Shown: piece after piece, positions 12,073-28,897 of the stretch
Numbering within the stretch: the stretch's first letter is position 1
Layout of the letters: each line of letters begins with the position of its first letter
Assembly (NCBI GenBank): GCA_014695325.1
Contig: JACJNZ010000039.1
Span: forward strand, 806,001-870,000
Reading direction: 5' to 3'
From: Cyanobacteria bacterium FACHB-502
GTDB taxonomy: Bacteria; Cyanobacteriota; Cyanobacteriia; Elainellales; Elainellaceae
Length of the DNA stretch: 64,000 bases
Translations under genes and position numbers: made by a program
The notes under the pieces: generated by a model
Databases searched by the model: none
Seen by the model: only the letters and a program-made list of their open reading frames with translations
What the model was told of the DNA's origin: nothing

Positions 12073-13068
12073 ATGGGAAACGATTCGGGGATGGTTGAGA
12101 TGGAACGATCAGTAATGCTGTCTAGTTTTGAGCCGCTTTTAGGGCAGCCTCAGGCGATCGAGCTTCTTACTCGTGCAGTGACTCAGGGGCGGATTGCGCC
12201 TGCCTATTTATTTGCTGGGGCTGCGGGAGTGGGGCGGAGTTTGGCAGCAAGCTGCTTTGCAGAGCTGTTACTGGCGCGTCAGCCATTAGAGCCGATTTCT
12301 GAGGGATTGAGGCAGCGAATTCGTCAGCGCAATCATCCTGATTTGCTGTGGGTGGAGCCAACTTATTTGCATCAGGGAAAGTTTCTTTCTGCGGCTGAGG
12401 CGGTGGAGTTGGGGATTAAACGTCGATCGCTGCCTGAAATTCGGCTGGAGCAGATTCGGGAGGTTGCTCGGTTTTTGAGTCGTGCGCCGCTAGAGGCTCG
12501 TCGATCGGTGATTGTGCTAGAGCAGGCAGACCGTATGGCAGAAGCCGCTGCAAATGGACTGTTAAAGACGCTGGAGGAACCAGGACAGGCAACGCTGATT
12601 TTGATTGCGCCCAGCCCAGAGTCCTTATTACCCACCTTAGTGTCTCGCTGTCAGCGAGTTCCGTTTTATCGACTGGACAGGGAGACGATCGCGCAAATTC
12701 TGACGCAGGTAGGACAAGGGGAAATCTTGAACCATCCCGAAATTTTGACGCTGGCGCAGGGGAGCCCGGGGGAGGCGATCGTTCACTGGCAGCAGCTTCA
12801 GACCGTTTCGATCGAGCTACTTCATGCTGCAACGGCTATTCCTGTCAGTCTCAAAGATGCCCTTGATCTTGCACGTCAGATTGTTCGCAGCCTGGATGGC
12901 GAAACTCAGCTTTGGCTGGTGGACTATTTGCAGCAGCATTACTGGCAACAGCAACAGCCCTACTATTTGTCTCTGCTAGAAAACACCCGCCGAATGCTAT
13001 TGCAGTATGTGCAGCCTCAGCTGGTGTGGGAGGTAACACTAATGAAAATGCAGGAATTTGCTGGCTGA
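12073..13068 (+). CDS. holB: DNA polymerase III delta' subunit
   Basis: Clamp-loader subunit that helps place the beta clamp on DNA. An AAA+ fold begins at about residue 18 (FEPLLGQPQAIELL). The P-loop reads GAAGVGRS, with Arg in place of the usual Lys; delta' is normally a non-hydrolysing clamp-loader subunit. Other family marks are the NGLLKTLEEPG segment and the SRCQRVPF sensor region. The Met at 12115 (MLSSFEPLL) is a plausible alternative start. Convergent with the CYTH gene. Confidence 0.88.
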   Translation: MGNDSGMVEMERSVMLSSFEPLLGQPQAIELLTRAVTQGRIAPAYLFAGAAGVGRSLAASCFAELLLARQPLEPISEGLRQRIRQRNHPDLLWVEPTYLHQGKFLSAAEAVELGIKRRSLPEIRLEQIREVARFLSRAPLEARRSVIVLEQADRMAEAAANGLLKTLEEPGQATLILIAPSPESLLPTLVSRCQRVPFYRLDRETIAQILTQVGQGEILNHPEILTLAQGSPGEAIVHWQQLQTVSIELLHAATAIPVSLKDALDLARQIVRSLDGETQLWLVDYLQQHYWQQQQPYYLSLLENTRRMLLQYVQPQLVWEVTLMKMQEFAG

Positions 13069-13078
13069 GAACCTGAAA

Positions 13079-13555
13079 TCAAGAAGAAATTCCCCAGGTT
13101 TGGTAGGGGTGCTTTGACAGATAAGCGTTATAGTAGCGCGGGTCTTGCGTCACTTCTTCGCGAATCCAATCAGGAAGCTGTAGGGGGTAATCAGCGTTGG
13201 GGAGTTCGACTTCTGCCATGATGAGTCCCTGATTTTCGCCGTGGAATTCATCAATTTCCCAGACTAGGTCGCCGCTCGCCAGACAATGCCGCACCTTCTC
13301 AATTTGGGGGCGATCGCAGAGCGTATCGAGCAACTCAGTTGCATCAGTGACTGGGATGGGATATTCATATTCAGCGCGACCGATGCCAACTGACTCACCC
13401 TTGATCGTAATGTAAGCCTGCTCCCCGGCGATTCGCACCCGAACGACGCGCTCTTTCGTCGCTAAAATATAGCCCTGACGGTAGGGGGTCGCAGTAGCCT
13501 TTGATCGCCAGCTATCACCCTGCACTAAAAACTTTCGCTCAATCTCGATACCCAT
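13079..13555 (-). CDS. CYTH domain protein (triphosphate tunnel metalloenzyme)
   Basis: A compact 158-residue CYTH protein. The EIERK signature (E4, E6, K8) opens the first strand and alternating charged beta strands follow, with EIDEF and AEVELP typical of the tunnel. Relatives are adenylate cyclase IV, thiamine triphosphatase and inorganic triphosphatase. For stand-alone bacterial members an inorganic triphosphatase activity is most likely. Its start lies back to back with the next gene on the other strand. Confidence 0.88.
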   Translation of the reverse strand: MGIEIERKFLVQGDSWRSKATATPYRQGYILATKERVVRVRIAGEQAYITIKGESVGIGRAEYEYPIPVTDATELLDTLCDRPQIEKVRHCLASGDLVWEIDEFHGENQGLIMAEVELPNADYPLQLPDWIREEVTQDPRYYNAYLSKHPYQTWGISS

Positions 13556-13557
13556 GA

Positions 13558-14238
13558 TTGCTGTTTTCCTTTGGTGCGCTCAATGGTTCAGAAATCGTGC
13601 TTGCTGAACCGACGACAACCCTGACGGACTACGCGATCGCGCTAGAGTCTACGCTTTTAGCAGTTGCCCTACTGGGGCAGAACAAGATACAGCACGACAA
13701 ACTGGGTTTGCAACGATCGCGCTTTTTCTGGGGGATTGCGTTTGGCTGGGTTGCGATCGCGGCGGCGGCAGGGGGAACCTGTCACGGTTTTGCCCCAATT
13801 TTAACGCTATCGCTTTTGAATCGCCTGTGGACGTTGACGGGTTATGCGATCGGCTGCGCTAGTTTTTTTATGCTGCTGGGGGCAACTTTCAGTACATTCG
13901 CGGGATGGATTCGTTGGGTGGCAATTGTGGCAATCGGCGGTAAGTCAGCTCTATATCTGGCGCAGGTGGGACAGTATCAGCAATTTGTGCCGATGGCGAT
14001 CGATTATGGGTCAGCAATGCTCGTGGTGGTGCTGCTGCAATGGGTGCAGCTTCAACGTCAGCGCAGGAGTGCAATCTGGATTAATGCTGGAATTGGCGTT
14101 TCCATGATTGCGATCGGGATTCAGGCAACGCGGATTTCAATTGCACCTTCCTTCAATCACAATGATTTGTATCATCTGGTGCAAATGGTGGCTTTGTACC
14201 TGCTGTATTGGGGCGCGAGGATTTTGAAGGATCGCTAG
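13558..14238 (+). CDS. Polytopic membrane protein (DUF6962-like)
   Basis: A membrane protein of up to 226 residues with about seven hydrophobic segments. The C-terminal FNHNDLYHLVQMVALYLLYWGAR resembles the conserved end of DUF6962 proteins and carries possible metal-binding His residues. Function unknown. A stop codon (TGA at 13555) lies immediately upstream and no ATG is near. The start must be TTG 13558, CTG 13561 or GTG 13597, none with a clear ribosome-binding site. Confidence 0.65.
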   Translation: MLFSFGALNGSEIVLAEPTTTLTDYAIALESTLLAVALLGQNKIQHDKLGLQRSRFFWGIAFGWVAIAAAAGGTCHGFAPILTLSLLNRLWTLTGYAIGCASFFMLLGATFSTFAGWIRWVAIVAIGGKSALYLAQVGQYQQFVPMAIDYGSAMLVVVLLQWVQLQRQRRSAIWINAGIGVSMIAIGIQATRISIAPSFNHNDLYHLVQMVALYLLYWGARILKDR

Positions 14239-17013: not shown

Positions 17014-18636
17014 TCACGAAGCGGGAGCCAGGGCAAGTGCCTGTTCGAGTTGTCTCAGTCGCTCTGCTTCTTTGTTATAGACGAGCGGATAGAGACGGGG
17101 AAGTTTGCCAGTTTCAATCAAAACCGATCGCACTTCTGAGTTTGTGATTTGTGCTAGCGTCCGTTTAGATAGAAGGGCGAGCGTTGCCGCAATGCCGATC
17201 GCCTGACCGACACCCGCATTAAATTCGACAATGCGCCCTGCTGAGCTTGCCAGTCCCACAAATCCAGAAGCCGGACTGACGACGGCTAAGTTAGGCACAC
17301 TTTTAGCGATCGCATGACGCATTCCCACATTGAATAGCGGCTGCTGAAAGTGAAGTTGCTGACTGCCCTTCTCCAGCAGGTAATCCTTCAATCCCACTCC
17401 TTTTTCCTGGGCGCGCGCCTTCAGTCCATCAATGCCGCCGCGAATATCAAAGTGGTAGCCAAAGGTTCCCAGAGCTTCTGCGGTGGGAATGCCGCCCACA
17501 AGCATCTGAGTGCCGCTCAGGGGCTGGACGGCATCGGTAATATTGCCTGCGTGACGAATATAGAGTTCAGGCATCGATCGCACTTGCGTTGCTCCCAGGC
17601 TTCTAAACCAGCGATCGATAAACGTCATTTCCTGTAGCATAGCGGGGGTCGGTTTCGCGCCCGATCGCGCCAGATTCTCAGCTTCGGCCGCTGTCACCCA
17701 AAACAGCAGCGCGTTCCAGACGAGCCGATCATTGGGCATCCGCGCAACGTTGGCATTGTCGAGAATGGAGAAACTTTCCTTTAGCGATAGCTTAGTACCG
17801 CGATAGGCATGGTAGGCGATCGAGAGGGCCTTGGTCGGGATGTCAATATAATCTGAACCGATCCACATCGATTTCGGTTTGCCAAACTGATCGACCAGTT
17901 CTAGCCGCAGCAGGTTTGCGAGCGCTGAATCGCCGTCGGTTGCGGCATTGAGATAGCGTTGTGCCTCGGTATCCGATGGATTGCTGAATCGCTTGATATA
18001 TTCCAGCTCGATTTGCTTCAGGGTAGACGGGCTTAGCCCCTCGGTTTCAAACACGAGCGAAACTGATAGCTCCGACTCGGGTAAGCCCAACGTGCCGAAT
18101 CCGGGCAGCTTTGGCACTCCTGCTGCCTGCGCTAGCTCTGCGTTGACCGTGGAATCGATAAAATACTGAGCAACATACACTTCGCCGTTCTGAGCCCGAA
18201 TGCCGCGCAGCCGTGAACCTTCTTTAGTGACTGACTCGATCGCCACCCCGCTGAGAATATCCACCCCGGCTTCGCGCAGCATTTGCCGCAGCACTGCATC
18301 TGCCCGCCACCTATCTAGCGCGACTTTGTCTACCCCAGTTTTGTTTAAAAACTCTTTGTATAAGGCAGGCGGCTCTCCAAAATCAGGCAGGTTCAGGTAA
18401 TTACGCAGGCTGAGTGGAATCTGACTGCGATCGAGATAAGCCAGCCCGCCCCTAACCAGATGTCCGCCGATGCCCTGCTTCGAGTTACCCTTCAACATCA
18501 GCAGAGAGCGCGGGAAATTACCGATGCGTCGCCGATATTCTCTTGCGGCTGCAATCAATGCCAGAATACCGGGAATTTCGTCGCCAAAACCGATGAAATC
18601 ATAGGTGCGGATTACGGAAGGGGTTCCAGAGGTCAT
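17014..18636 (-). CDS. FAD-dependent oxidoreductase (FAD_oxidored-like)
   Basis: A 540-residue flavoprotein of the PF12831 type. The N-terminal nucleotide-binding turn is unusual: YDFIGFGDEIPGILALIAAAREYRR sits where a GGTPxGIAAA motif is expected, so the glycine pattern is partly lost. The downstream ESVTKEGSRLRGI strand, the YFIDSTVNAELAQAAGV segment (normally DATGDADLAALAG) and a C-terminal GVGQAIGIAATLAL helix fit the family. The substrate is unknown. It is monocistronic, opposite to its neighbours. Confidence 0.75.
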   Translation of the reverse strand: MTSGTPSVIRTYDFIGFGDEIPGILALIAAAREYRRRIGNFPRSLLMLKGNSKQGIGGHLVRGGLAYLDRSQIPLSLRNYLNLPDFGEPPALYKEFLNKTGVDKVALDRWRADAVLRQMLREAGVDILSGVAIESVTKEGSRLRGIRAQNGEVYVAQYFIDSTVNAELAQAAGVPKLPGFGTLGLPESELSVSLVFETEGLSPSTLKQIELEYIKRFSNPSDTEAQRYLNAATDGDSALANLLRLELVDQFGKPKSMWIGSDYIDIPTKALSIAYHAYRGTKLSLKESFSILDNANVARMPNDRLVWNALLFWVTAAEAENLARSGAKPTPAMLQEMTFIDRWFRSLGATQVRSMPELYIRHAGNITDAVQPLSGTQMLVGGIPTAEALGTFGYHFDIRGGIDGLKARAQEKGVGLKDYLLEKGSQQLHFQQPLFNVGMRHAIAKSVPNLAVVSPASGFVGLASSAGRIVEFNAGVGQAIGIAATLALLSKRTLAQITNSEVRSVLIETGKLPRLYPLVYNKEAERLRQLEQALALAPAS

Positions 18637-18821
18637 AGTTACGGTCTTTAATGGGATAGGAAAAGAAACGCATCGTTCTGCAGATTCTACGGATTTTGAC
18701 GCACTTACTCAGGCACACCCTAACTTAAGCGATCGGTCAAACCTGCAGAATTTTTAGAAATCGTGATTTTATTTGGCATTGCTCAAATTTGGCTTAAACA
18801 AATTTAGGTGTAAAGGAATCT

Positions 18822-19838
18822 ATGAAAGCAAATGCCCCGAACGCTGATCCAGCCCTTCAACCTCCAGACTCTCCCTTAGCGCAAGCCGGACAAGGCCAAT
18901 CGGAACAAAACCAATCGGAACAAAACCAATCGAAACAAAACCAATCGGAACAAAACCAATCGGAACAAGCCGAACGCTATGAAGCCGAGATTCAGGCACT
19001 CAAAGCAGAACTTGACCAAACTCGTCTGGCGCATCAAATGGCGATCGAAATGGCGCAGTTTCAGGCAGGCTTTCTGGCACGGACTTCCCACGAGCTACGA
19101 TCGCCCATTAATAGCGTAATCAGCCTGCATCAGCTTATTTTGTCTGACCTGTGCGACAGCCCAGCAGAGGAGCGAGATTTTGTCGCGCAGGCACACGCCG
19201 CCGCTCAGAAAATGCTGGGTTTGATGGATGAGCTGATTCACGTCTCGCAGCTTGTGCAGAATACTGCCCGTTTGCATTTAGCTCCAGCCTCTCTCCAGGA
19301 CATTTTGGCATCGGTTAAGCAGGCAACGCAGCTCCAAGCAAAAAACCGCAACTTGCAGCTTGAGATTCAGCTTCCTGATCCGTCGGTTATGGTTCTGGCA
19401 GATGAACGACGGCTGAAACAGGTTTTGCTACATCTGGTGGATATGCCGCTGAGCGTTATGCAGCAGGGTTTTGTGCGAGTCACGACTCACATTCTTTCGG
19501 AGACTGCCCAGATTGAAATCACCGATCAGCGTCCGGCAGAGTGCTGGCAGGAATTGATTGACACTTTGCACAACTTCGAAGGAACCGATCAACTGTCACG
19601 GATGAAGGGCGAGACCAAGCAGGCCATCGATAAGGAAAGTACGCTACTCGCTCTGAGTCGATCGCCGATTCCCCCCTCGATCGGACTGAGGCTTTTAACG
19701 CAGCGATCGATTTTAGAACTCATGGGCGGACAGCTCATGCTGCTGGAAACCCCGGTGATTTCTGGCGAGCGTTCGGCGAACTCGCAGGAGGGCATCACTC
19801 GAATTCGGTGTGTATTGCCGCTTGCGACGACTCTTTAA
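18822..19838 (+). CDS. Histidine-kinase-like protein with degenerate ATPase domain
   Basis: A 338-residue soluble protein. A glutamine-rich linker of five SEQNQ-type repeats (about 27-49) leads into a coiled coil and a HisKA dimerisation helix with an intact H-box, FLARTSHELRSPIN (H90). The following region aligns with HATPase_c (DERRLKQVLLHLV). The N-box asparagine is missing, since LVDMPLSVM replaces the usual LLSNAIKF, and the DxGxG box reads TDQRPAECW. ATP binding is therefore doubtful and the protein may be a phosphotransfer or scaffold pseudokinase. No response regulator is adjacent. Confidence 0.75.
   Translation: MKANAPNADPALQPPDSPLAQAGQGQSEQNQSEQNQSKQNQSEQNQSEQAERYEAEIQALKAELDQTRLAHQMAIEMAQFQAGFLARTSHELRSPINSVISLHQLILSDLCDSPAEERDFVAQAHAAAQKMLGLMDELIHVSQLVQNTARLHLAPASLQDILASVKQATQLQAKNRNLQLEIQLPDPSVMVLADERRLKQVLLHLVDMPLSVMQQGFVRVTTHILSETAQIEITDQRPAECWQELIDTLHNFEGTDQLSRMKGETKQAIDKESTLLALSRSPIPPSIGLRLLTQRSILELMGGQLMLLETPVISGERSANSQEGITRIRCVLPLATTL
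18896..18970 (+). repeat. Five tandem 15-bp units encoding QSEQN
   Basis: CCAATCGGAACAAAA is repeated at 18896, 18911, 18926 (one change, Gly codon base G to A giving SKQN), 18941 and 18956 (last unit diverged at its end). It lies in frame in the histidine-kinase-like gene, so copy-number change would alter linker length without frameshift. Confidence 0.95.
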
Positions 19839-20043: not shown

Positions 20044-20700
20044 ATGATGCTTCCCACCCTGAAATTGAATCAGCGATTGATTAGCAGTAGTCTGGTCTGT
20101 AGCAGTTTGGCGATCGTCACGCCTGCCCTCGCCGCCACAGCCAATTATCCTGAAGCGAGAACGGCTTCACAGCGTCCGGTTTTCCGCTCTGAATCAGCCA
20201 CGATCGCAGTGCAACCATTCCACATTGCTCAGGCTGGGGTGAGCGTGACCGGATCAGAAGGCAACTTTACCGGGCAGGTCTTAGTTCGCACTTCGGTTCA
20301 AACTGCCTGGAGCGTGCTGACCGACTACAATCGTTTTTCGTCTTTTATTCCCAGCATCGCTGAGAGTCGAGTACTACAAAGCGACGGCAACCGCAAAGTG
20401 TTTGAGCAGGTGAACGTGATCCGGGTGTTTCCGTTCACGCGTCGCAGTCGGGTAGTACTTTCTTCGGTGGAGAGCTATCCGCAGCAGATTGCCTTTAGCC
20501 TGGTAGAGGGCGATATTGAGTCACTACAAGGGGTTTGGCGCATTCAGCCAAGGGGAGACAATCAGGTTTTGATTACACATCAGGTCGCAATTGATCCAGG
20601 GTCTTCGCCCATGCGGGGACTGTTTTTCAACATCTACAAAAGCACGCTTGCCAGTACGCTTGCTGCCCTAAAACAGGAAATGGAGCGACGGAGTAGCTAA
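20044..20700 (+). CDS. Secreted SRPBCC (polyketide cyclase/START-like) protein
   Basis: A 218-residue protein with an N-terminal signal peptide (hydrophobic ISSSLVCSSLAIVTPALA, likely cleavage after ALA). A SRPBCC lipid-binding fold runs from about residue 65 to the end. VQTAWSVLTDYNRFSSFIPSI and VNVIRVFPFTRRSRV are typical of the cyclase/dehydrase-like branch. It should bind a hydrophobic ligand outside the plasma membrane or in the thylakoid lumen. Its stop is one base from the next start, so it forms an operon with the SDR gene. The ligand is unknown. Confidence 0.8.
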   Translation: MMLPTLKLNQRLISSSLVCSSLAIVTPALAATANYPEARTASQRPVFRSESATIAVQPFHIAQAGVSVTGSEGNFTGQVLVRTSVQTAWSVLTDYNRFSSFIPSIAESRVLQSDGNRKVFEQVNVIRVFPFTRRSRVVLSSVESYPQQIAFSLVEGDIESLQGVWRIQPRGDNQVLITHQVAIDPGSSPMRGLFFNIYKSTLASTLAALKQEMERRSS

Positions 20701-20701
20701 T

Positions 20702-21535
20702 ATGGCTCAAACGCGATCGGACTGGACGGGAAAGATTGCGATTATCACGGGTGGATCAAGCGGCATTGGAAAAGCTCTGGCACAGCGTCTCGTCCGACAG
20801 GGAGCAAATGTAGCGATCGTCGCCCGTAATTCCGCAAAGCTAACCCAGGCAAAGGCGGAAATTACTGCTCAATGTCTTAATGCAAATCAGCAAGTCTGCA
20901 TCTACTCAGCGGATGTCTCCGATCGCGCCCAGGCAGAACAGGCAATGCAGCAGGCGATCGAGGCTTTGGGCACACCCGATTTGCTTGTGACCTGTGCCGG
21001 AATTGCCCATCCCGGATATTTTCAGGAATTGCCGATCGAGATTTTTGAAGAGACGATGGCAATCAACTATTTTGGGTCGCTCTACTGCATCCGGGCAGTG
21101 CTGCCTGCAATGGCGGCTCAGCGTCGAGGACAGATGGTAATGGTTTCCTCTGGCGCAGGACTAATCGGCATCTATGGCTACACGCCCTACAGCCCGACGA
21201 AGTTTGCGCTGCGGGGATTGGCAGAGTCGCTGCGGGGCGAGCTGAAACCGATGGGGATCGGAGTGGCGATCGTGTATCCACCGGATACGGATACGCCTCA
21301 GCTGGTAGAGGAAAACAAAACCAAACCGCTCGAAACCAAACGGATTACCGCGACCGCAGACACTTGGAGCGCAGATGGGGTTGCGTGTGAAATTATCACC
21401 GGGGTTGAGCGGAGGGCATTTGCGATCGCCCCTGGTACAGAAATGTCTGTGTTGGCGAAGCTGCATAGTGTGATTGCGCCGGGGTTGAACTGGTATTTCG
21501 ATCGAATTGTGCGACAGGTGAGGGAGGGCAAGTAA
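20702..21535 (+). CDS. SDR oxidoreductase resembling 3-ketosphinganine reductase
   Basis: A classical short-chain dehydrogenase of 277 residues. It has the NADP-binding TGGSSGIGKA (16-25), catalytic S150 and YSPTK (Y163, K167). The segment YPPDTDTPQLVEENKTKPLET closely recalls the signature of KDSR-type 3-ketodihydrosphingosine reductases and is not a general SDR feature. The C-terminus lacks an obvious membrane anchor. The substrate is inferred only. It is translationally coupled to the SRPBCC gene, which suggests a shared lipid substrate. Confidence 0.8.
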   Translation: MAQTRSDWTGKIAIITGGSSGIGKALAQRLVRQGANVAIVARNSAKLTQAKAEITAQCLNANQQVCIYSADVSDRAQAEQAMQQAIEALGTPDLLVTCAGIAHPGYFQELPIEIFEETMAINYFGSLYCIRAVLPAMAAQRRGQMVMVSSGAGLIGIYGYTPYSPTKFALRGLAESLRGELKPMGIGVAIVYPPDTDTPQLVEENKTKPLETKRITATADTWSADGVACEIITGVERRAFAIAPGTEMSVLAKLHSVIAPGLNWYFDRIVRQVREGK

Positions 21536-21616: not shown

Positions 21617-23356
21617 ATGGAGTCTGGGCGACTGAAACGACTACACCGTAGGATTTGGGGGGATGCGTCGCCTGAGGTCACTGGGCTACTGTTGAGTTTG
21701 CTGGTGCCGATTTACTTTGGTGCATGGTCCCTGTGGTTTGCGTTTGGTCATCCTTTTGTAATTCAGGATGATGCGCGTCAGCATATAGTCTGGTTTCAGC
21801 AGTTTGTTGATCCGGCTTTATTTCAGCAGGATTGGATTGCGCGTTATTTTGGCACGGTTGCGCCTGCGGGGTATCGGTTTCTGTATTGGATTATGGCGCA
21901 GGGAGGGATTGAGCCGATCGCCTTTGCCAAAGTCATACCGCTATTGTTGGCTTTAATTACCACTTATTATGTCTATCGCACTGCGCTGATTATTTTTCCA
22001 GTTGCGCTTCAGGCCTGCCTCAGCAGTTTAATTTTGAATCAGCAGCTTTGGCTAAATGATGATCTCAGTTCTGCAACGCCCAGGGCTTTTGTTTATCCAA
22101 TTTTTGCTGCTTTTCTGTATTTCCTGCTGCGTCAATCGCTCATTCCCGGTTTGATTACGATCGCCCTTCAGGGATTATTTTTTCCGCAGCTTGTTCTGGT
22201 TCAGCTTGGCATTCTGACGCTTCGGCTGGTGCGGTGGGAAAATCGGCGTTTTCGGTTGAGCCGCGATCGGAGGGCGTCCCTGTTCTGGATCAGCGGCATG
22301 ATTGTTGGAACGCTGACGCTGCTGCCCTTTTTATTAAAAACTTCCGAATTTGGAGGTGCAATTACCGCAGCACAAATGCAATCGTTGCCGGAGTATGGAT
22401 TGGGGGGACGCAGCGAGTATTTTGGCGTGAGTCCGATCGCGTTTTGGCTTCAAGGAGGAAGCGGGCTGAGAATTCCAGTTTTCCCGACGATTATTTGGGC
22501 AGGATTGGGTTTGCCGCTGCTTAAAAGAATGCGGTTGCCTTTAGTCAAATCGATCGCGCCAGAAGTCAACCTTTTGGGCCAAGTTTTAATCAGTTCGCTG
22601 GTTTGTTTTTTGCTGGCGCATTTGCTGCTGCTCAGGCTGCATTTTCCCAGTCGCTACACCTACCATACGCTGCGGTTTATTTTGTCGATCGCCGCTGGCA
22701 TTGTTCTTACCGTTTTGATGGATACGGGTTGGCGATGGGTTCAGCAAAGACGGCAACAGCGCGATTGGCAATTGAAACTCAAAGTCGGGATTGCGGTTGT
22801 TACTGCGGCGATCGTGCTGATTGTGCCTGCGATTCCTGCGCTGTTTTTCCAGTTTCAGGGATGGGTAATCGGAGAAGAGACGGCGTTGTATGAGTATCTC
22901 AGAACGCAGCCCAAGCAAACTCTCGTTGCCTCGCTATCGCCTGAAGCAAACAATTTACCTGCCTTTGCTCAGCGATCGACCCTCACCGGAAGAGAATTTG
23001 CCCTTGCCCATCATCCCCAGTATTATCAGCAGATTCAAGCACGAACGATCGATCTCATCCGACTGCAATATCTGGCAAATCTAGAAGAAGTAAAACAGCT
23101 TATCCAAAAACATCACATTGATTTTCTCTTAGTCGATCGCAACGCATTCACGCCGGATTATCTGATGCAGGATTGGTTGATTCACAGTTCTTTTCAAAAT
23201 ATTGTTCAGCAGGCGATCGATCAAATGCATCAGGGCAATCTTTCGGCGATCGGACAATTGCGTGATCACTGTGGTGTGGTTTCAACGGAGCGATCGATTT
23301 TATTAGAGACAAAGTGCATCATTGCAGCTTACTCACCCACTCACCCTCCTACTTAG
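21617..23356 (+). CDS. Polytopic membrane protein, GT-C glycosyltransferase-like (paralog 1)
   Basis: A 579-residue protein with roughly ten membrane segments and a soluble C-terminal part of about 140 residues. Right after the first membrane helix is HPFVIQDDARQH (D51-D52), placed like the catalytic acidic loop of GT-C glycosyltransferases. A second acidic site, LNDDLSSATPRAF, follows later. The late FPSRYTYHTLRF and a C-terminal DFLLVD strand are also conserved in the paralog at 27017. Membrane glycan or lipid-linked sugar transfer is an inference. Its last 8 bases overlap the convergent hydrolase gene. Confidence 0.7.
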   Translation: MESGRLKRLHRRIWGDASPEVTGLLLSLLVPIYFGAWSLWFAFGHPFVIQDDARQHIVWFQQFVDPALFQQDWIARYFGTVAPAGYRFLYWIMAQGGIEPIAFAKVIPLLLALITTYYVYRTALIIFPVALQACLSSLILNQQLWLNDDLSSATPRAFVYPIFAAFLYFLLRQSLIPGLITIALQGLFFPQLVLVQLGILTLRLVRWENRRFRLSRDRRASLFWISGMIVGTLTLLPFLLKTSEFGGAITAAQMQSLPEYGLGGRSEYFGVSPIAFWLQGGSGLRIPVFPTIIWAGLGLPLLKRMRLPLVKSIAPEVNLLGQVLISSLVCFLLAHLLLLRLHFPSRYTYHTLRFILSIAAGIVLTVLMDTGWRWVQQRRQQRDWQLKLKVGIAVVTAAIVLIVPAIPALFFQFQGWVIGEETALYEYLRTQPKQTLVASLSPEANNLPAFAQRSTLTGREFALAHHPQYYQQIQARTIDLIRLQYLANLEEVKQLIQKHHIDFLLVDRNAFTPDYLMQDWLIHSSFQNIVQQAIDQMHQGNLSAIGQLRDHCGVVSTERSILLETKCIIAAYSPTHPPT

Positions 23357-24944
23357 AAAAATCTAGCTCTGCCTCATTCCCTTCAATCTCCCCCTGAATT
23401 AAGCCGATCGGATAAGCTCGATCGCTCAAAACCTGCGTGTAGTTTGCCTGCAAAAAGGGCTGATAGGTTTCATCTTGCACAATGTATGTTTTGAAGAATG
23501 CGACGGTGAGGGCACTGTGATAGGTTTGGGAGATGCGTTTGAGTTCGCTCCAGGGGGTTTGGCGATTGGTGAAGCCGCCCAGCGTATCGTGCGTGAGGCG
23601 GGCGTGGGGTAACCCTTTGGCAACTGCAAGGTATTTTTGGGGAGCGGTCAGATGACGGTAAGCGGGCAACTGTTCAACCAGCAGCGGCGTGAGAATATCC
23701 TGATCGGTGGCTTCCCAGAAGACAGGCACTTTGACATCGCGCAGTCCTGCCTGTCCAAATAGGCTGCGACCAAACGGCACAAATAGATAGATGGCTTTGA
23801 TTCGATCGTCGCGCAAATTTTGATCGAGCTGGGGCAGGTCTAAGGCACGGCACTGATACAGCAGCGAAATGTTGATGATCGCCCTTTGCGTTTGACAGTT
23901 CGCTTGAAGCTGAGCGCGATCGAACTGTGCGCCTGCCAGCGATAGAGCCGTAGTGCCGCCGAAGGAATAGCCGAATACGCCCACCTGCTGAAGGTTGAGG
24001 CGATCGTTCAAGTCTGATTGATTGCGCCGAGTCAAATCGTCCAGCAAAACTATGACATCACGCGGACGATCAACATATTCAGTTGCGTCAAAATTTTCGC
24101 GATGTAGCCCCTGATAAAACGCGAGTAGGCGATCGCGATTGCTGCCCGGATGCTCAGGCACAGCAACGGCAAATCCGTGGGAGGCAAGCTGCTGAGCCAG
24201 TTCATCAAACAGATCGCGTCTGGCTCCCAGTCCATTTGAGATCACAATCAGCGGCACAGGCTGCGCAGCATCTGGCAAATACAGATCGGTGACAATCGAA
24301 CGATTTCGCTGGGCATCTTGAACCGTGAAGGTTTGCTTTTGCACAGCGACGTTTCCCGCCTGCCGTAAATCGGGCAATTTCGACCAATCCACGATCGCTT
24401 CAGACTGTGCGATTGCTGCAGACTGCTGTTCCAGATCACTCGCAAACCGATCGGTTTCCTGAAGCAGCGATCGAATTAAGCCCATTAGCCGGAACGCCTG
24501 ACCTACATCAATCCGCATATCGGTGGGCAACTGCCGCAGAAAATTAATTGCTGATAGCCCCTGCGAATCATCTGCTGCCAGAATCAGGGCTGCTCTAAGG
24601 CTGGAGGCTCCGTTTTGTCGAGAAGCCGTTTGAAAAATGTCGCCTGCTTCCTGCAAAAGCTGCTCGCCCGATCGCGTATAGCTGAACTGCGCCGCCATCG
24701 TGGGATCAACCTGATAGCGAGTTTGCAGCGCGTCCTGCACCTGGGTTTTGCGCCCGCTCAATAGCCCCGACAGATAGCCCAACCGATCAATTCCCTGTCC
24801 GCTTTGGGCAAATGTTTCCAGATCTTTGACCTCGATCGAAAATCCCAATAGCCCGTAGTTGAAATAAATTCGTTCTGCTGCCCGTACCGGAAAGGCGGTC
24901 AAGAGGGGAGCAAGCACACCAAGCAGCAAGGCAAATCGTTTCAT
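23349..24944 (-). CDS. Secreted DUF1400 plus alpha/beta hydrolase (dienelactone/PAF-AH-like)
   Basis: A 531-residue exported hydrolase. It has a signal peptide (MKRFALLLGVLAPLLTAFPVRA) and an N-terminal DUF1400 domain (RIYFNYGLLGFSIEVKDLETFA to about residue 135). The alpha/beta hydrolase domain follows, with the oxyanion region VISNGLGARRDLFD, nucleophile elbow GYSFGG and an FWEATDQDILTP acid region. The late LPHARLTHD supplies a candidate His. The family includes lipase-like and acetylhydrolase-like enzymes. It begins 75 bases after the acyl-AMP ligase on the same strand, so the two are probably co-transcribed. Confidence 0.82.
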   Translation of the reverse strand: MKRFALLLGVLAPLLTAFPVRAAERIYFNYGLLGFSIEVKDLETFAQSGQGIDRLGYLSGLLSGRKTQVQDALQTRYQVDPTMAAQFSYTRSGEQLLQEAGDIFQTASRQNGASSLRAALILAADDSQGLSAINFLRQLPTDMRIDVGQAFRLMGLIRSLLQETDRFASDLEQQSAAIAQSEAIVDWSKLPDLRQAGNVAVQKQTFTVQDAQRNRSIVTDLYLPDAAQPVPLIVISNGLGARRDLFDELAQQLASHGFAVAVPEHPGSNRDRLLAFYQGLHRENFDATEYVDRPRDVIVLLDDLTRRNQSDLNDRLNLQQVGVFGYSFGGTTALSLAGAQFDRAQLQANCQTQRAIINISLLYQCRALDLPQLDQNLRDDRIKAIYLFVPFGRSLFGQAGLRDVKVPVFWEATDQDILTPLLVEQLPAYRHLTAPQKYLAVAKGLPHARLTHDTLGGFTNRQTPWSELKRISQTYHSALTVAFFKTYIVQDETYQPFLQANYTQVLSDRAYPIGLIQGEIEGNEAELDFSK

Positions 24945-25019
24945 GAGACGCGATCGAAAATCATTGGAGGGGTAACTGAAAGTTCACAGCGCGAACCCAT
25001 TCTAGATTACTTTTTGAAG

Positions 25020-26906
25020 TCATTCGGAAACTCGGCGCATTCGCTCGATCCGTCCTTTTGCTAAAGCCATATATCGTTTCAAGTGCGTCAACGGATTGAG
25101 ATAGCGGCGAATCAGGGTAGAAATATCGCTGATCTGGTCGGGGTTCGATCGCCAAATTCCCAAACTTTCCTCTTCCCATTGCTGGTTGATAAATTGGGTG
25201 CGACAGGCGCGACGCTGGATTTTGCCGCTGGGGGTTTTGGGCAGGCTACCGGGTTTGAGCAGAACGATCGCATAAACATCAACAAAGTGTTCCTGAAACA
25301 ATCGCCAGCGAATTAGTTCAACCACTTCGTTAATCGAGAGCCGATCGCGGTAGCTGCGTTCCACCTCCTGAGCAATTACGAGGCGATCTTCCCCGTTGAC
25401 GGAAACTGAGAAAGCCGCACCGCTATTAGTACGAAAGGCAGGATGGCTCTCCTGAACGGTTTGCTCAAGCTGATCGGGATAGTGATTGAATCCCCAGAAG
25501 ACCATGACATCGTTGAGCCGTCCGGTGATGAACAGTTCGCCGTCCTGAATAAAGCCCAGATCGCCCGTCCGCAGAAAAGTTTCTTTGCCTGCTGTTTCTG
25601 CTGCGTCTGCCAGGACTGCACCAAAGGTTTGAGCGGTTAGCTCTGGCTGGTTCCAGTAGCCTTTGCCCAAACCGGAACCTGACACCCAAATTTCCCCCAC
25701 CCGATTATCTTGAAGGGGAAACGGCGCAGCCTCACCTGCACAGCAAATTCGCGTGACCGGATCAACGATCAGCATTTTGCCATCGAGCCAGGGTTGCCCG
25801 CAGGAAACGATCGACCGCACCCGCCGGGATTTGCCTTCAGCCTGCACGACGCGATTTTGCTCCAGGGCTGCTTCATCGATCGATCGGGCAATCGGCGGTT
25901 CATTCTTTTTGCCGCCCGTGATCAGCAGGGTTGCCTCTGCCATGCCGTAGCAAGGATAAAACGCTTCTCGGCGAAAACCGCAGTCCGCAAAGACTTGGGC
26001 AAAGCGATCGATCGTCTCAAGGCGGACGGGTTCGGCTCCGGTGAATGCCACTTCCCAGGAACTGAGGTCAAGCTGCTGTCGCTGAGCATCCGTCACCTGA
26101 CGGCAGAGCAAATCGTAGGCAAAATTGGGTGCGCCGCTGGTGGTAGCTCGATAGCGCGAAATTGCCTGAAGCCAGCGCACGGGTTTTTGCACAAAGTCGA
26201 TCGGCGACATCAGCACGCAGGACGCGCCCAGATAAATTGCTTGCAGCACGTTGCCAATCAGCCCCATATCGTGAAACAAAGGTAGCCAGCCTACCCCCAC
26301 CGATCGCGCGGTATGACCAAACGCAAGCTGAAGCATTTTTTGGTTCTGCATCAGGCATTCGTGGGTGATCATCACGCCTTTGGGCTGCCCGGTGGAGCCA
26401 GAGGTATATTGCAGAAATGCAAGCTGATCGGAATCGATCGTTTTCGCGGTCCAGCTTGAAGCGAGATCGTCAGATAGAGTGGCAGTAATCAGCCATTGCA
26501 GTTCTTCGATCGGAAGCTGGTGCTTGAGACGGTTTACCAGGGATTGAGCGGTGAGGACGATCGTTGCTCCTGCATCCTGGCATCGGGCAGACAGGTCAAA
26601 CACCGCATGACGATTGCGCGGCGGATGACAGGGTACCGCAACCACACCCGCATACAAACACCCCAAAAACGCGCTGATAAAATCGATCGCCCCATCATAG
26701 GGATAGACCAGCAGGGCCCGACTGCCGGACGGGACCAGGACACTGAGCTGAGCCGCGATCGTCTGAGCCTGCCGATCTAAGGCAGCATAGGTAATACGCT
26801 CGGCTTCATTGCCCTCTTTGAGAAAAATAAACGCAGTTTCCTGAGGTTGAGCCTGACTCCGCAGTGCAAGTAATTCGACCAGAGTGGGGGCAGGGGGTTG
26901 GAGCAT
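25020..26906 (-). CDS. Stand-alone fatty acyl-AMP ligase (FAAL)
   Basis: An adenylate-forming enzyme that activates fatty acids as acyl-AMP, usually for transfer to an acyl carrier protein. Core motifs are YTSGSTGQPKGV, the FAAL-typical LPLFHDMGLIGN, CYGMAEATL, LRTGDLG and GRLNDVMVFWGFNHYP. The C-terminal lysine is in TPSGKIQRR. HDMGL, GFNHYP and the missing CoA-type hinge set it apart from acyl-CoA synthetases. The ATG at 26906 is preferred; a TTG at 26933 extends it by nine residues. No acyl carrier protein or polyketide synthase is adjacent. The C-terminal tail of about 50 basic residues (LNPLTHLKRYMALAKGRIER) is extra. Confidence 0.88.
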   Translation of the reverse strand: MLQPPAPTLVELLALRSQAQPQETAFIFLKEGNEAERITYAALDRQAQTIAAQLSVLVPSGSRALLVYPYDGAIDFISAFLGCLYAGVVAVPCHPPRNRHAVFDLSARCQDAGATIVLTAQSLVNRLKHQLPIEELQWLITATLSDDLASSWTAKTIDSDQLAFLQYTSGSTGQPKGVMITHECLMQNQKMLQLAFGHTARSVGVGWLPLFHDMGLIGNVLQAIYLGASCVLMSPIDFVQKPVRWLQAISRYRATTSGAPNFAYDLLCRQVTDAQRQQLDLSSWEVAFTGAEPVRLETIDRFAQVFADCGFRREAFYPCYGMAEATLLITGGKKNEPPIARSIDEAALEQNRVVQAEGKSRRVRSIVSCGQPWLDGKMLIVDPVTRICCAGEAAPFPLQDNRVGEIWVSGSGLGKGYWNQPELTAQTFGAVLADAAETAGKETFLRTGDLGFIQDGELFITGRLNDVMVFWGFNHYPDQLEQTVQESHPAFRTNSGAAFSVSVNGEDRLVIAQEVERSYRDRLSINEVVELIRWRLFQEHFVDVYAIVLLKPGSLPKTPSGKIQRRACRTQFINQQWEEESLGIWRSNPDQISDISTLIRRYLNPLTHLKRYMALAKGRIERMRRVSE

Positions 26907-27016
26907 GGGGCGCGAGGAGGGAGGGAAGGGCAAGGAGTAAGGAGTAGATGAGTGGCTCGGTGATCGGTGGATGAGATGGAGATTGATGGGACGATCGAAG
27001 TTAGTCTAGCGGGGAA

Positions 27017-28897
27017 TTGGGTTTGGCGGAAGCAGTGGCAGTGACTCAGAAGGGGTTTGGTTCTCGGCGCGGGTTCTGGATTAGTTTGCTGATTCCGCTT
27101 TATTTTGGGCTGGTGTCAGCGGGATATCGGCTGAGCCATGCTTCGATCGTGCAGGATGATCAGCGATTGCATCTGGTTTGGCTTCAGCAGTGGCTTGATC
27201 CCCAGCTTTTTCAGAATGATTTGATTGCTCAGTATTATCAGTCGATTCAGCCGATCGGATTTCGTGCCTTCTACTGGATGGCTGCCCAGTTGAGCATTGA
27301 GCCAATGACGCTTGCCGCCATGCTGCCCCTGATTCTGGCATTGATGAGCAGCATTTTTCTGTACCGCGTGACATTTCGTCTGCTGCCCCATCCACTTGCG
27401 CCACTGCTGACCGTGCTGATTTTTAATCAGAATATTTGGTGTAAAGATGATCTGGTTTCTGCCTCGCCGCGATCGTTTGCCTATCTGCTGCTGATTTTGT
27501 TTCTGGATAGCGTGATCCAGTTAAAAGAAGGTTTGGGGAGAACTGATTCTAATTCCGCGAATCGTCACAGCCTTGCGAATCGCCTTCCAGGGCTAAACGA
27601 AGATTCTTCGGTGTTTCAAAGTCCTCCCAAATTAGGGAATTTAGGGGGCAGTCCGGCTTTCTGGTGCTTGTCTGTGCTAATTTTGCAGGGCTTGTTTTAT
27701 CCGCAAATCATGCTCGTTTCGCTGGGAGTTCTCTGGCTTCAGTTGCTTCCGTGGCGGCATGGCAGAGTGAGTTTAAGCCGCGATCGATCGCGCTATCTGC
27801 TTGCAGTGGTGGGACTGGTTCTCACCGGAATCATCCTGCTGTTTTTCTCCGGGAATGCCAGCACCTTTGGCGAGATTTTCAGCGCGGCACAGATGCGATC
27901 GATGCCCGAATTCCAACCGGGGGGCAGGCGAGCTTATTTTGGGGTAAATCCGCTTCAGTTCTGGTTTGGCGGCGCGAGTGGGCTGCGGCTTCCCCTATTT
28001 CCGCCGATTTTGTGGACTGCAATTGGCTTGCCGCTGGTTTTAAATCGCAAAGGGCGTATCGCTTCGGCCCTCCAACCCGAAATTAAGATACTGGCTCAGA
28101 TGATGATTGCCTCCGTGGGGCTCTTTGGACTGGCGCATCTGACTTTTCCGCTGCTTTATTTGCCCAGTCGCTACACCTTTTACAGTTCCAGAGTTGTAAT
28201 GTCGATCGCCGCAGGCATCACGCTCACCTTCCTCATCGATCGCTGCTGGAAATGGGTTTCTCGATTGCGGCAAGCGGGTCTTCTCCATCCGCACGATCGA
28301 ATCATGATCGCTTTTGTTGTTTTATTTGCGATCGTCGCCGTCATCGTACCCGCCATTCCGCCTCTTTTTTTATCAAATCAGGGTTGGATTATTGCTGAAG
28401 AAACGAACCTGTATTCATTTCTGGCAAATCAGCCTAAAACAAGCATGATTGCTTCTCTGTCTCCTATCACAGACAATATTCCTGCATTCTCGCGGCGATC
28501 GGTTTTGTTTAGTCCTGAGCTAGCGTTGCCCTATCATTCCGGTTTTTATCAGGCAATGCAGCAGCGCATCAACGATATCGTGCAGGCACAGTACAGCTCT
28601 GACGCATCAAACGTTAAACGAACGATTGAGAAATACAAGATTAATTTATGGATTATTGCATCAACAAGTTTTGATTCAGATTATTTGTTAAAACAGCCCT
28701 GGTTCATGAATCGCTCAATGCGATCGAACGTTCTCCAAGCCGTGGCTCAATTTCAGCCTGGTAAACCGCCCATTTTGCAAACGCTGAGCCAGCAATGCAC
28801 CATTTTTTCCGAAAATTCCGATACAGTTATTGATGCTCAGTGCGTCGTTCGATTGCTCAGCGCAACTGAAAGGGATGTGGGAATTCATAATCCATGA
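27017..28897 (+). CDS. Polytopic membrane protein, GT-C glycosyltransferase-like (paralog 2, with repeat-derived insert)
   Basis: A 626-residue paralog of the protein at 21617. The two align from the first membrane helix (LLIPLYFG; IVQDDQRLH with D47-D48) through the KDDLVSASPRSF loop, the LSRDR loop, the AAQMRSMPEF, YFGVNPLQFW and SRYTF segments and the C-terminal domain. Paralog 2 has about 45 extra residues at about 170-215. These include FQSPPKLGNLGGS, encoded by a dispersed genomic repeat. The start is uncertain: TTG 27017 is listed, with other TTG/GTG codons shortly after. It is divergent from the FAAL gene. Confidence 0.7.
   Translation: MGLAEAVAVTQKGFGSRRGFWISLLIPLYFGLVSAGYRLSHASIVQDDQRLHLVWLQQWLDPQLFQNDLIAQYYQSIQPIGFRAFYWMAAQLSIEPMTLAAMLPLILALMSSIFLYRVTFRLLPHPLAPLLTVLIFNQNIWCKDDLVSASPRSFAYLLLILFLDSVIQLKEGLGRTDSNSANRHSLANRLPGLNEDSSVFQSPPKLGNLGGSPAFWCLSVLILQGLFYPQIMLVSLGVLWLQLLPWRHGRVSLSRDRSRYLLAVVGLVLTGIILLFFSGNASTFGEIFSAAQMRSMPEFQPGGRRAYFGVNPLQFWFGGASGLRLPLFPPILWTAIGLPLVLNRKGRIASALQPEIKILAQMMIASVGLFGLAHLTFPLLYLPSRYTFYSSRVVMSIAAGITLTFLIDRCWKWVSRLRQAGLLHPHDRIMIAFVVLFAIVAVIVPAIPPLFLSNQGWIIAEETNLYSFLANQPKTSMIASLSPITDNIPAFSRRSVLFSPELALPYHSGFYQAMQQRINDIVQAQYSSDASNVKRTIEKYKINLWIIASTSFDSDYLLKQPWFMNRSMRSNVLQAVAQFQPGKPPILQTLSQQCTIFSENSDTVIDAQCVVRLLSATERDVGIHNP
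27614..27650 (+). repeat. Dispersed repeat copy inside a coding sequence
   Basis: TTTCAAAGTCCTCCCAAATT, then AGGGAATTTAGGGGGCA. The inverted complement matches the intergenic copy at 21569-21604 almost base for base, and the same element type occurs at 59556-59629. Here it is read in frame within paralog 2. Confidence 0.85.

Follow-up and report, generated by a model that had tools for sequence, protein, structure and literature searches.

In Pseudomonas fluorescens MYb115, sphingolipids are made by PfSgaAB, a two-gene system in which an iterative polyketide synthase (PKS) works with a separate alpha-oxoamine synthase (AOS), as described in excerpts of the paper (PMC12134224). No word beginning with 'cyanobact' occurs in the main text of that paper, and how cyanobacteria make sphingolipid-like lipids is still unexplained. 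Here, we describe a gene block from Cyanobacteria bacterium FACHB-502, lying in a stretch of 64,000 nucleotides (contig JACJNZ010000039.1, positions 806,001 to 870,000 of the forward strand, assembly GCA_014695325.1), referred to below as the window. The block encodes two paralogous membrane proteins (memA and memB), a stand-alone fatty acyl-AMP ligase (FAAL), a DUF1400 hydrolase, an SRPBCC protein and a short-chain dehydrogenase/reductase (SDR) of the 3-ketodihydrosphingosine reductase (KDSR) type. It is likely to be one dispersed part of a pathway to a glycosylated, sphingolipid-like long-chain amino alcohol, on the basis of computed co-occurrence and linkage, domain fusions and a GT-C glycosyltransferase fold.

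In the AasR-AcpR-SPT route of Caulobacter, a dedicated acyl-ACP synthetase loads a dedicated acyl carrier protein (ACP) feeding serine palmitoyltransferase (SPT), and the gene sets of this route name a predicted dehydrogenase/epimerase, according to excerpts of PMC9386255. Milano et al. (2013) catalogued carrier-linked Aminotran_1_2 domains, listed A-CP-PLP2 proteins (Microscilla, Blastopirellula) and used SPT (3A2B) as the template for a model of the pyridoxal phosphate (PLP) domain of B1XHP8, an AMP-binding protein from Synechococcus sp. PCC 7002; in the excerpts of that paper, the domains are listed or modelled, with no reductase, glycosyltransferase or cyanobacterial sphingolipid pathway tied to them (PMC3870968). 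In an excerpt from a published assessment, Nostoc punctiforme was judged to lack the capacity for sphingolipid synthesis, since the single AOS that it has resembles BioF. Heterocyst glycolipids are tied to a PKS of the polyunsaturated fatty acid type (excerpts of PMC4247773). The heterocyst glycolipid (hgl) pathway is likewise a cyanobacterial route to a PKS-made glycolipid. To our knowledge, neither an AOS nor a KDSR-type SDR forms part of it.

The cyanobacterial genes considered here differ from PfSgaAB in their FAAL start, in the fusion of the AOS to a PKS or to a FAAL-ACP, in the KDSR-type SDR, in the GT-C, GT4 and GT39-like glycosyltransferases, and in the dispersal of the loci. The Caulobacter route, as excerpted, uses three separate proteins, whereas some cyanobacteria have a FAAL-ACP-AOS fusion and others a PKS route. 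In the open-access literature searched, no paper contained both 'oxoamine synthase' and 'fatty acyl-AMP ligase', and this cyanobacterial pathway, which may be in print elsewhere, was not found described; the main text of a 2025 FAAL review contains no word beginning with 'sphing' or 'oxoamine' (PMC11837247). What seems to be new here is that cyanobacteria would have a PKS/FAAL-AOS route to sphingolipid-like lipids, decorated by GT-C proteins, the PKS/AOS principle being already known. The AOS clade names candidate genes in 30 of the 291 genomes sampled, so the question of cyanobacterial sphingolipid-like lipids becomes directly testable, and an orphan family of GT-C membrane proteins (the mem family) would gain its first functional setting.

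The SDR and the alpha-oxoamine synthase

An earlier note on this DNA had described two membrane genes around a FAAL and a DUF1400 hydrolase on the opposite strand, and this observation was confirmed, with open reading frames (ORFs) for memA (579 aa, 21617..23356, + strand), the DUF1400 alpha/beta hydrolase (23349..24944, - strand), the FAAL (25020..26933, - strand) and memB (626 aa, 27017..28897, + strand). The memA and DUF1400 genes are convergent, their 3' ends overlapping by 8 bp, and the FAAL and memB genes are divergent. The block in fact begins two genes before memA, with an SRPBCC (polyketide-cyclase-like) gene (20044..20700; PF03364, E 1.4e-18) and the SDR gene (20702..21535), both absent from that note. 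The gaps are 1 bp between SRPBCC and SDR and 81 bp between SDR and memA, all on the + strand, as in an operon (the ORFs come from a simple script, with approximate start codons).

The SDR gene is a core gene of the proposed pathway. Of the 595 solved sequences that the SDR matched, the first in rank is TSC10 (8jat; E 4.4e-33, the next being 3.4e-29), a 3-ketodihydrosphingosine reductase that aligns with residues 7-242 of the window SDR, including an EN.TKP..T block. This block is present in 21 of 23 members of the SDR clade (all except G166 and G216; handles of this kind denote genomes, contigs (C), loci (L) and families (f) of the survey), and in none of five other SDRs. The best NCBIfam SDR model, PRK06181, gave 203 bits, just below its cut-off of 215, and names no substrate. 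The window SDR, which unlike TSC10 is bacterial, is thus closer in sequence to KDSR than to other SDRs and is a candidate 3-ketosphinganine reductase.

The AOS domain of this genome (G000:C29; PF00155, E 4.2e-45) finds its best solved match in SPT 3a2b (E 1.9e-71), with TLSKSF aligned to TFSKSL, and is predicted to be a fold-type I PLP-dependent AOS with the catalytic lysine. The lysine, a histidine and a C-terminal arginine, which we take to be catalytic, align with those of 3a2b. Membership in SPT was rejected by the curated NCBIfam cut-off; because the SPT cut-offs are not reached, the protein is referred to here as an AOS, with no amino acid named. The AOS clade stands apart from the BioF-like group in its scores alone, with members at 428 bits or more, two intermediates at about 345 and then matches at about 305 and less.

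Co-occurrence was assessed in a sample of 291 class-level genomes, in which class searches gave the best matches (about 160 rows) and clades were defined from gaps in score: 250 bits or more for the SDR (next 124), 428 or more for the AOS (next 346) and 427 or more for DUF1400 (next 369). The AOS clade also includes G233, in which the AOS part of a PKS is split over two overlapping frames of about 294 bits each (G233:C150:21369-22593, L071/L084), by a frameshift or an assembly error. The FAAL clade was set at 711 bits or more (next 703), a somewhat arbitrary set because these values leave no real gap. The SDR and AOS clades were each found in 34 genomes, occurring together in 30 and separately in four each, with neither in 253 (Fisher p 3.1e-32, a value that ignores genome relatedness). 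These 30 genomes come from six families (14 from f1, nine from f26, three from f13, two from f32 and one each from f16 and f39), and SDR and AOS lie <2 kb apart in 14 of them. Two of the genomes counted as having the SDR only (G003 and G164) carry a FAAL-AOS fusion next to it (L099, L112), the AOS part of which is 35-37% identical to the Planktothrix AOS; the other two are G214 and G238. The AOS match of G249 is partial, with an internal stop, the SDR of G113 is truncated at a contig end, and G267, with an SDR fragment only, was counted as lacking the SDR.

Fusions and a probable pathway dispersed over contigs

The earlier remark that no PKS or carrier gene lies near is true locally but misleading, because such genes sit on other contigs of the same genome. 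Contig C23 (L076) encodes PKS1, a protein of 3049 aa with the order FAAL-ACP-KS-AT-DH-ER-KR-ACP (KS, ketosynthase; AT, acyltransferase; DH, dehydratase; ER, enoylreductase; KR, ketoreductase); the same contig carries genes for a stand-alone KS (621 aa) and a GT39-like PMT_2 protein. Contig C29 (L075) encodes PKS2-AOS, of 2841 aa (KS-AT-DH-ER-KR-ACP-AOS), and contig C55 the protein most similar to the GT4 of Planktothrix (53%). PKS1 and PKS2 keep the KS cysteines, malonyl-type HAFH acyltransferases, the ER and KR motifs and the ACP serines; as judged by eye, the DH domains retain their histidine and aspartate, though not the usual HxxxGxxxxP pattern. The pathway thus seems to be present but dispersed over contigs, and several relatives hold PKS or carrier genes beside relatives of the window genes.

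On the Planktothrix agardhii plasmid NZ_LR882937.1 (L031), two PKS genes enclose a memA relative, and an SRPBCC gene, a GT4 gene, GT39-like genes and a DUF1400 hydrolase gene are present as well. In one PKS, truncated where the stretch ends, the domains run FAAL-KS-AT-DH-ER-KR-ACP; in the other, KS-AT-DH-ER-KR-ACP is followed by an Aminotran_1_2 domain, the AOS. The SDR comes directly after PKS-AOS in L066, L071, L102 and L108, and FAAL-AOS fusions adjoin the SDR in L095, L097, L098, L099 and L112; the two fusions scanned against Pfam (L097, L099) combine AMP-binding, PP-binding and Aminotran_1_2 domains, and so FAAL, ACP and AOS, in one protein. A third arrangement, with an ACP-like piece, AOS, histidine phosphatase and SDR, is found in L048, L104 and L109, the first two of which also have a FAAL. 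Domain labels at these loci were mostly assigned by blastp against slices of the Planktothrix proteins and other fetched proteins, Pfam having been scanned for the Planktothrix proteins, the PKSs of this genome, the AOS and ACP of L048, the two fusions and some neighbours.

Glycosyltransferase genes recur beside these enzymes: GT4- and GT39-like genes are near PKS2-AOS in L087, L118, L119 and L123, and a GT28-like gene is near the FAAL-AOS/SDR set in L098 (PF04101), with homologues in L095 and L097. Each of these three loci encodes a further protein (423-433 aa), to which Pfam gives no match and which resembles the GT28-like one by eye (L095:4868-7321; L097:10004-11152 and 12479-13750; L098:7997-10520, for both genes). 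We take the Pfam labels Glycos_transf_1 and PMT_2 to correspond to GT4 and GT39 types, respectively. Glycosylation of the lipid is suggested by these neighbours.

The junctions of the window recur elsewhere. The convergent memA/DUF1400 end is found in G220 and G138, and the divergent FAAL/memB start in G109, G261 and G118. The window gene order is no peculiarity of this species, because in G220 the FAAL and DUF1400 genes join the KS-SRPBCC-SDR-memA run (FAAL, DUF1400, memA, SDR, SRPBCC, KS). The run itself is seen in L037, L056, L064 and L072, and as KS, SDR and memA in L065 (the DUF1400 gene of L037 was missed by the ORF script and placed there by a separate DUF1400 search). In the same-genus genome G109, these genes are split among three places, one with FAAL and memB, one with SRPBCC, SDR and memA, and one with DUF1400; by parsimony, a larger ancestral cluster may be breaking up in this genus. 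Next to SRPBCC-SDR-memA, the window also holds an FAD-dependent oxidoreductase gene (- strand) and a histidine-kinase-like gene (+ strand) at 17014-19838, as does G109 (L055).

The membrane proteins and the remaining block genes

No Pfam or NCBIfam model matched memA or memB over its cut-off, and a relative of the mem family among solved chains in the PDB was ruled out at the sequence level, a profile search giving no match up to E 1. The assignment of a GT-C fold therefore needed a comparison of folds. An AlphaFold2 model of memA built from five sequences, of medium confidence (pLDDT 69.9, pTM 0.70), was compared by Foldseek. The 15 chains matched at E <= 0.001 comprise the GT-C-type transferases DPY19, AglB, PglB, ALG12, AftA and ArnT and a single chain from an oligosaccharyltransferase (OST) translocon complex. 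VIA-align gave Z from 25.0 to 10.4 over the best 50 rows, all 50 of which are chains of families that we take to have the GT-C fold. The comparison with GT-C folds suggested earlier thus came out in favour of such a fold, and the acidic loop noticed in the sequence is real, D52, R54, H56 and D72 (memA numbering) being invariant in 43 aligned family members. GT-C proteins have acidic residues in the first extracytoplasmic loop, and those known act outside the membrane. The loop of memA comes after model helix 19-44, as the acidic residues of the known transferases (STT3/AglB/PglB, ArnT, Pmt4, DPY19, ALG12) come after the first helix; these share the fold with the memA model, at about 7-15% identity in the structural matches. 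The memA protein is a probable lipid glycosyltransferase. The GT-C fold alone is no proof of sugar transfer, because GPI-transamidase chains are also among its VIA-align matches; PIG-U, a chain of that complex, is not known to be catalytic. By its paralogy with memA (38% identity over 600 columns, E 3e-143, as the earlier note had supposed), memB would also be a GT-C-family protein.

Among the matches listed, the mem family is present in 110 of the 291 genomes, with four genes in this one. A tree was made of 43 rows, a non-random sample because the loci had been chosen for their best matches and their pathway genes. In this tree, a separate clade (100/99) is formed by 16 copies that have no pathway genes beside them; the two further mem genes of this genome are among these. 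The remaining 27 rows include a 13-row clade with memA (98/96), in which eight rows adjoin the SDR, and a seven-row clade with memB (100/99), linked to FAAL or DUF1400 in five. Each of these two clades contains orthologs from other genera, so the split between memA and memB is older than the genus. The duplication of the membrane gene with later insertion of the enzyme pair that had been proposed is not supported, a recent one being rejected by the tree; in G109, the memA and memB orthologs are also about 1.9 Mb apart on one contig. A mem gene adjoins the SDR in at least 11 of the 34 SDR-clade genomes, a lower bound and not a rate, given that only adjacent-looking cases were entered.

A scan of contigs with the single memA protein as query gave two loci, and a plasmid search three records, two of them Planktothrix agardhii plasmids at about 47% identity. 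The third is a weak, partial relative on a Phyllobacterium plasmid (L032, 8001-8675; 28% over 39% of the query). In Lyngbya aestuarii BL J (L034, 3941-11602), two mem members lie near GT4- and GT39-like genes in a stretch without FAAL, AOS or SDR labels, which is another setting of this GT-C family. The memB gene has a segment (27512-27662, residues ~165-215) that is absent from four aligned relatives and includes SPPKLGNLGG, from a partly palindromic stretch; its same-genus ortholog (L035) has different letters at this position. The 14-base core of this repeat-like piece occurs once only, in the insert itself, in the own-genome stretches searched (the window, L075-L082 and L128), a search that did not bear out an origin as a dispersed repeat.

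The SRPBCC protein is probably a secreted lipid-binding protein, to judge by a hydrophobic 15-residue stretch near the N-terminus (mean Kyte-Doolittle 1.7 to 2.5) in 11 of 11 proteins, including that of the window. Its gene is immediately 5' of the SDR gene in G220, G186, G214, G131, G138, G118, G099, G109 and LEGE 07170. The filamentous cyanobacterium LEGE 07170 (L033) corresponds in every gene to locus L068 of G159, a genome of family f1, to which the window also belongs. The DUF1400 hydrolase belongs to PF07176 (E 6.5e-35; 120.6 bits against a curated cut-off of 23.4), and G.S.GG is present in nine of nine proteins, including that of the window (GYSFGG in eight); with a signal-peptide-like N-terminus, it looks secreted. 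Its clade is found in 20 genomes, 17 of which have the SDR clade.

The stand-alone FAAL (AMP-binding, E 1.5e-59; motifs YTSGSTGQPKG, FLRTGDLG and PKTPSGKIQR) appears to group with fatty acyl-AMP ligases and not with acyl-CoA ligases. FAAL-type NCBIfam models outscore those of acyl-CoA ligases, none of them exceeding its cut-off; the first match is a long NRPS/PKS model and the second PRK05850, a fatty-acid--AMP ligase (402 bits), both below their cut-offs. FAAL-type chains head the PDB matches; the nearest solved chain is 7r7e, named 'Polyketide synthase' (E 8.6e-160), with the ligases FadD23, FadD32 and FadD28 lower. The FAAL clade occurs in 14 genomes, 13 with a full SDR and one (G267) with the SDR fragment; all 14 also hold the DUF1400 clade, and the two genes lie <2 kb apart in 10. 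The survey of gene neighbourhoods called for in the earlier note has thus borne out the co-occurrence and linkage of these families in other genomes. With the FAAL threshold lowered to 663 bits, the set grows to 24 genomes, 19 of which carry the SDR.

Proposed pathway and rival explanations

The proposed pathway would start with the loading of a fatty acid on the ACP of PKS1 by its FAAL domain and the lengthening of the chain with malonyl units by PKS1 and PKS2, at about one C2 unit per module, as suggested by the domains. By homology, the AOS that ends PKS2 would condense the chain with an amino acid, with decarboxylation, and so release it as a 2-amino-3-ketone, which the window SDR, to judge by homology and co-occurrence, would reduce to a sphinganine-like base. 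Acting from the outer side of the membrane, memA and memB may then add sugars, as may the unlinked GT4 and GT39-like enzymes. Action of the GT-C proteins on the outer face fits the secreted-looking SRPBCC and DUF1400 proteins. The roles of three of the proteins are guesses: SRPBCC might carry the lipid, the DUF1400 enzyme might trim or transfer an acyl group, and the stand-alone FAAL might supply a second acyl chain or another starter.

Several observations weigh against this pathway. The AOS lies below the NCBIfam cut-off for SPT (334.5 of 640 bits at best), and its bioF score is slightly above its SPT score (362.2), also short of a cut-off of 426.45. Of the 30 genomes that have both genes, 16 show AOS and SDR separated by more than 2 kb or on different contigs, and in this genome the AOS is not near the window. 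Among the genomes with the AOS only, G022 carries a FAAL-AOS fusion but no SDR of the clade, and two of the 20 with the DUF1400 clade (G135 and G163) have neither the SDR nor the AOS clade. Many mem paralogs, such as the 16 of 43 tree rows in their own clade, have no tie to the pathway, and among the matches listed, linkage of the memA family to the SDR is confined to family f1; the core pathway seems to do without memA-family genes outside f1. No N-acyltransferase (ceramide synthase) was recognized among the scanned neighbours, no dedicated search for one having been made. A LeuB-like neighbour, finally, hints that the AOS may use an amino acid other than serine.

According to the earlier note, these genes could produce or modify a surface glycan or glycolipid that is acylated. 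This interpretation is partly supported, in the GT-C fold, in a glycolipid as the class of product and in the co-occurrence and linkage seen in other genomes. An acylated glycan or glycolipid, made by the FAAL and the GT-C proteins without a sphingoid base, would agree with the GT-C fold of memA, the presence of a FAAL and the occurrence of other mem members in places that have GT4- or GT39-like genes but none of the pathway (L034, L080, L091, L092), but it leaves unexplained the adjacent KDSR-type SDR, the co-occurrence of this SDR with the AOS and the FAAL-ACP-AOS fusions. We regard it as unlikely; with an SDR of the ketosphinganine-reductase type next to these genes and co-occurring with the AOS, a glycosylated long-chain amino alcohol is the more probable product. 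The neighbouring SDR and the dispersed PKS-AOS have changed the meaning of the earlier observation.

It is similarly improbable that the AOS and SDR make a small diffusible amino ketone or amino alcohol used in signalling or defence, as CqsA makes CAI-1, with the GT-C genes as mere neighbours. The failure of the AOS clade to reach any NCBIfam SPT cut-off would be in keeping with such a product, as would the fusion to a PKS and the LeuB-like partner, which resemble specialized metabolism, and the CAI-1 synthase is a distant PDB match of the AOS (E about 7e-24). However, the SDR has the KDSR-type block, the FAAL would load fatty acids, and the pairing with glycosyltransferases is recurrent, GT-C genes standing beside the SDR in the genomes counted above. 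Very little probability is given to the idea that the genes are unrelated and came together by chance or drift of gene order; the scattering of the block in G109 speaks for it, but both window junctions recur in other genera, and the FAAL and DUF1400 clades keep together both in genome content and in distance.

Within the preferred pathway to a glycosylated amino alcohol, the amino acid may be a special one. A LeuB-like gene is directly 3' of the AOS gene in 10 of 21 loci (L075, L087, L110, L111, L118, L119, L121, L122, L125, L126) and within 8 kb of it in L123. The 21 loci comprise 19 with a PKS-AOS protein, of which one belongs to the Planktothrix plasmid and several are truncated by contig ends, and two with an AOS piece at a contig end (L125, L127); the downstream side of L129 is off the contig. 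The LeuB-like dehydrogenase beside the AOS is distinct from the strongest Iso_dh match of the genome (312 vs 470 bits), and a fused LeuD-LeuC-like protein is encoded close to PKS-AOS in this genome, G109 and G220. The positions of the LeuB-like and fused LeuD-LeuC-like genes beside PKS-AOS are L075:17285-18325, L128:2920-4671, L110:7623-10395 and L111:11345-15358. An amino acid made specially for the AOS is suggested, because these genes adjoin it. We tentatively put forward a separate cyanobacterial class of glycosphingolipid-like lipids, with a backbone from FAAL/PKS and AOS, in this lineage a non-serine amino acid supplied by the LeuB-like and LeuD-LeuC-like enzymes and glycosylation by the outer GT-C pair, as a possible though doubtful extension. 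A PagL-like gene, of the lipid A deacylase family, was also observed near PKS-AOS, in L087 (14261-15202; PF09411) and, as identified by blastp, in L126 (5397-6383) and L123 (7614-8534).

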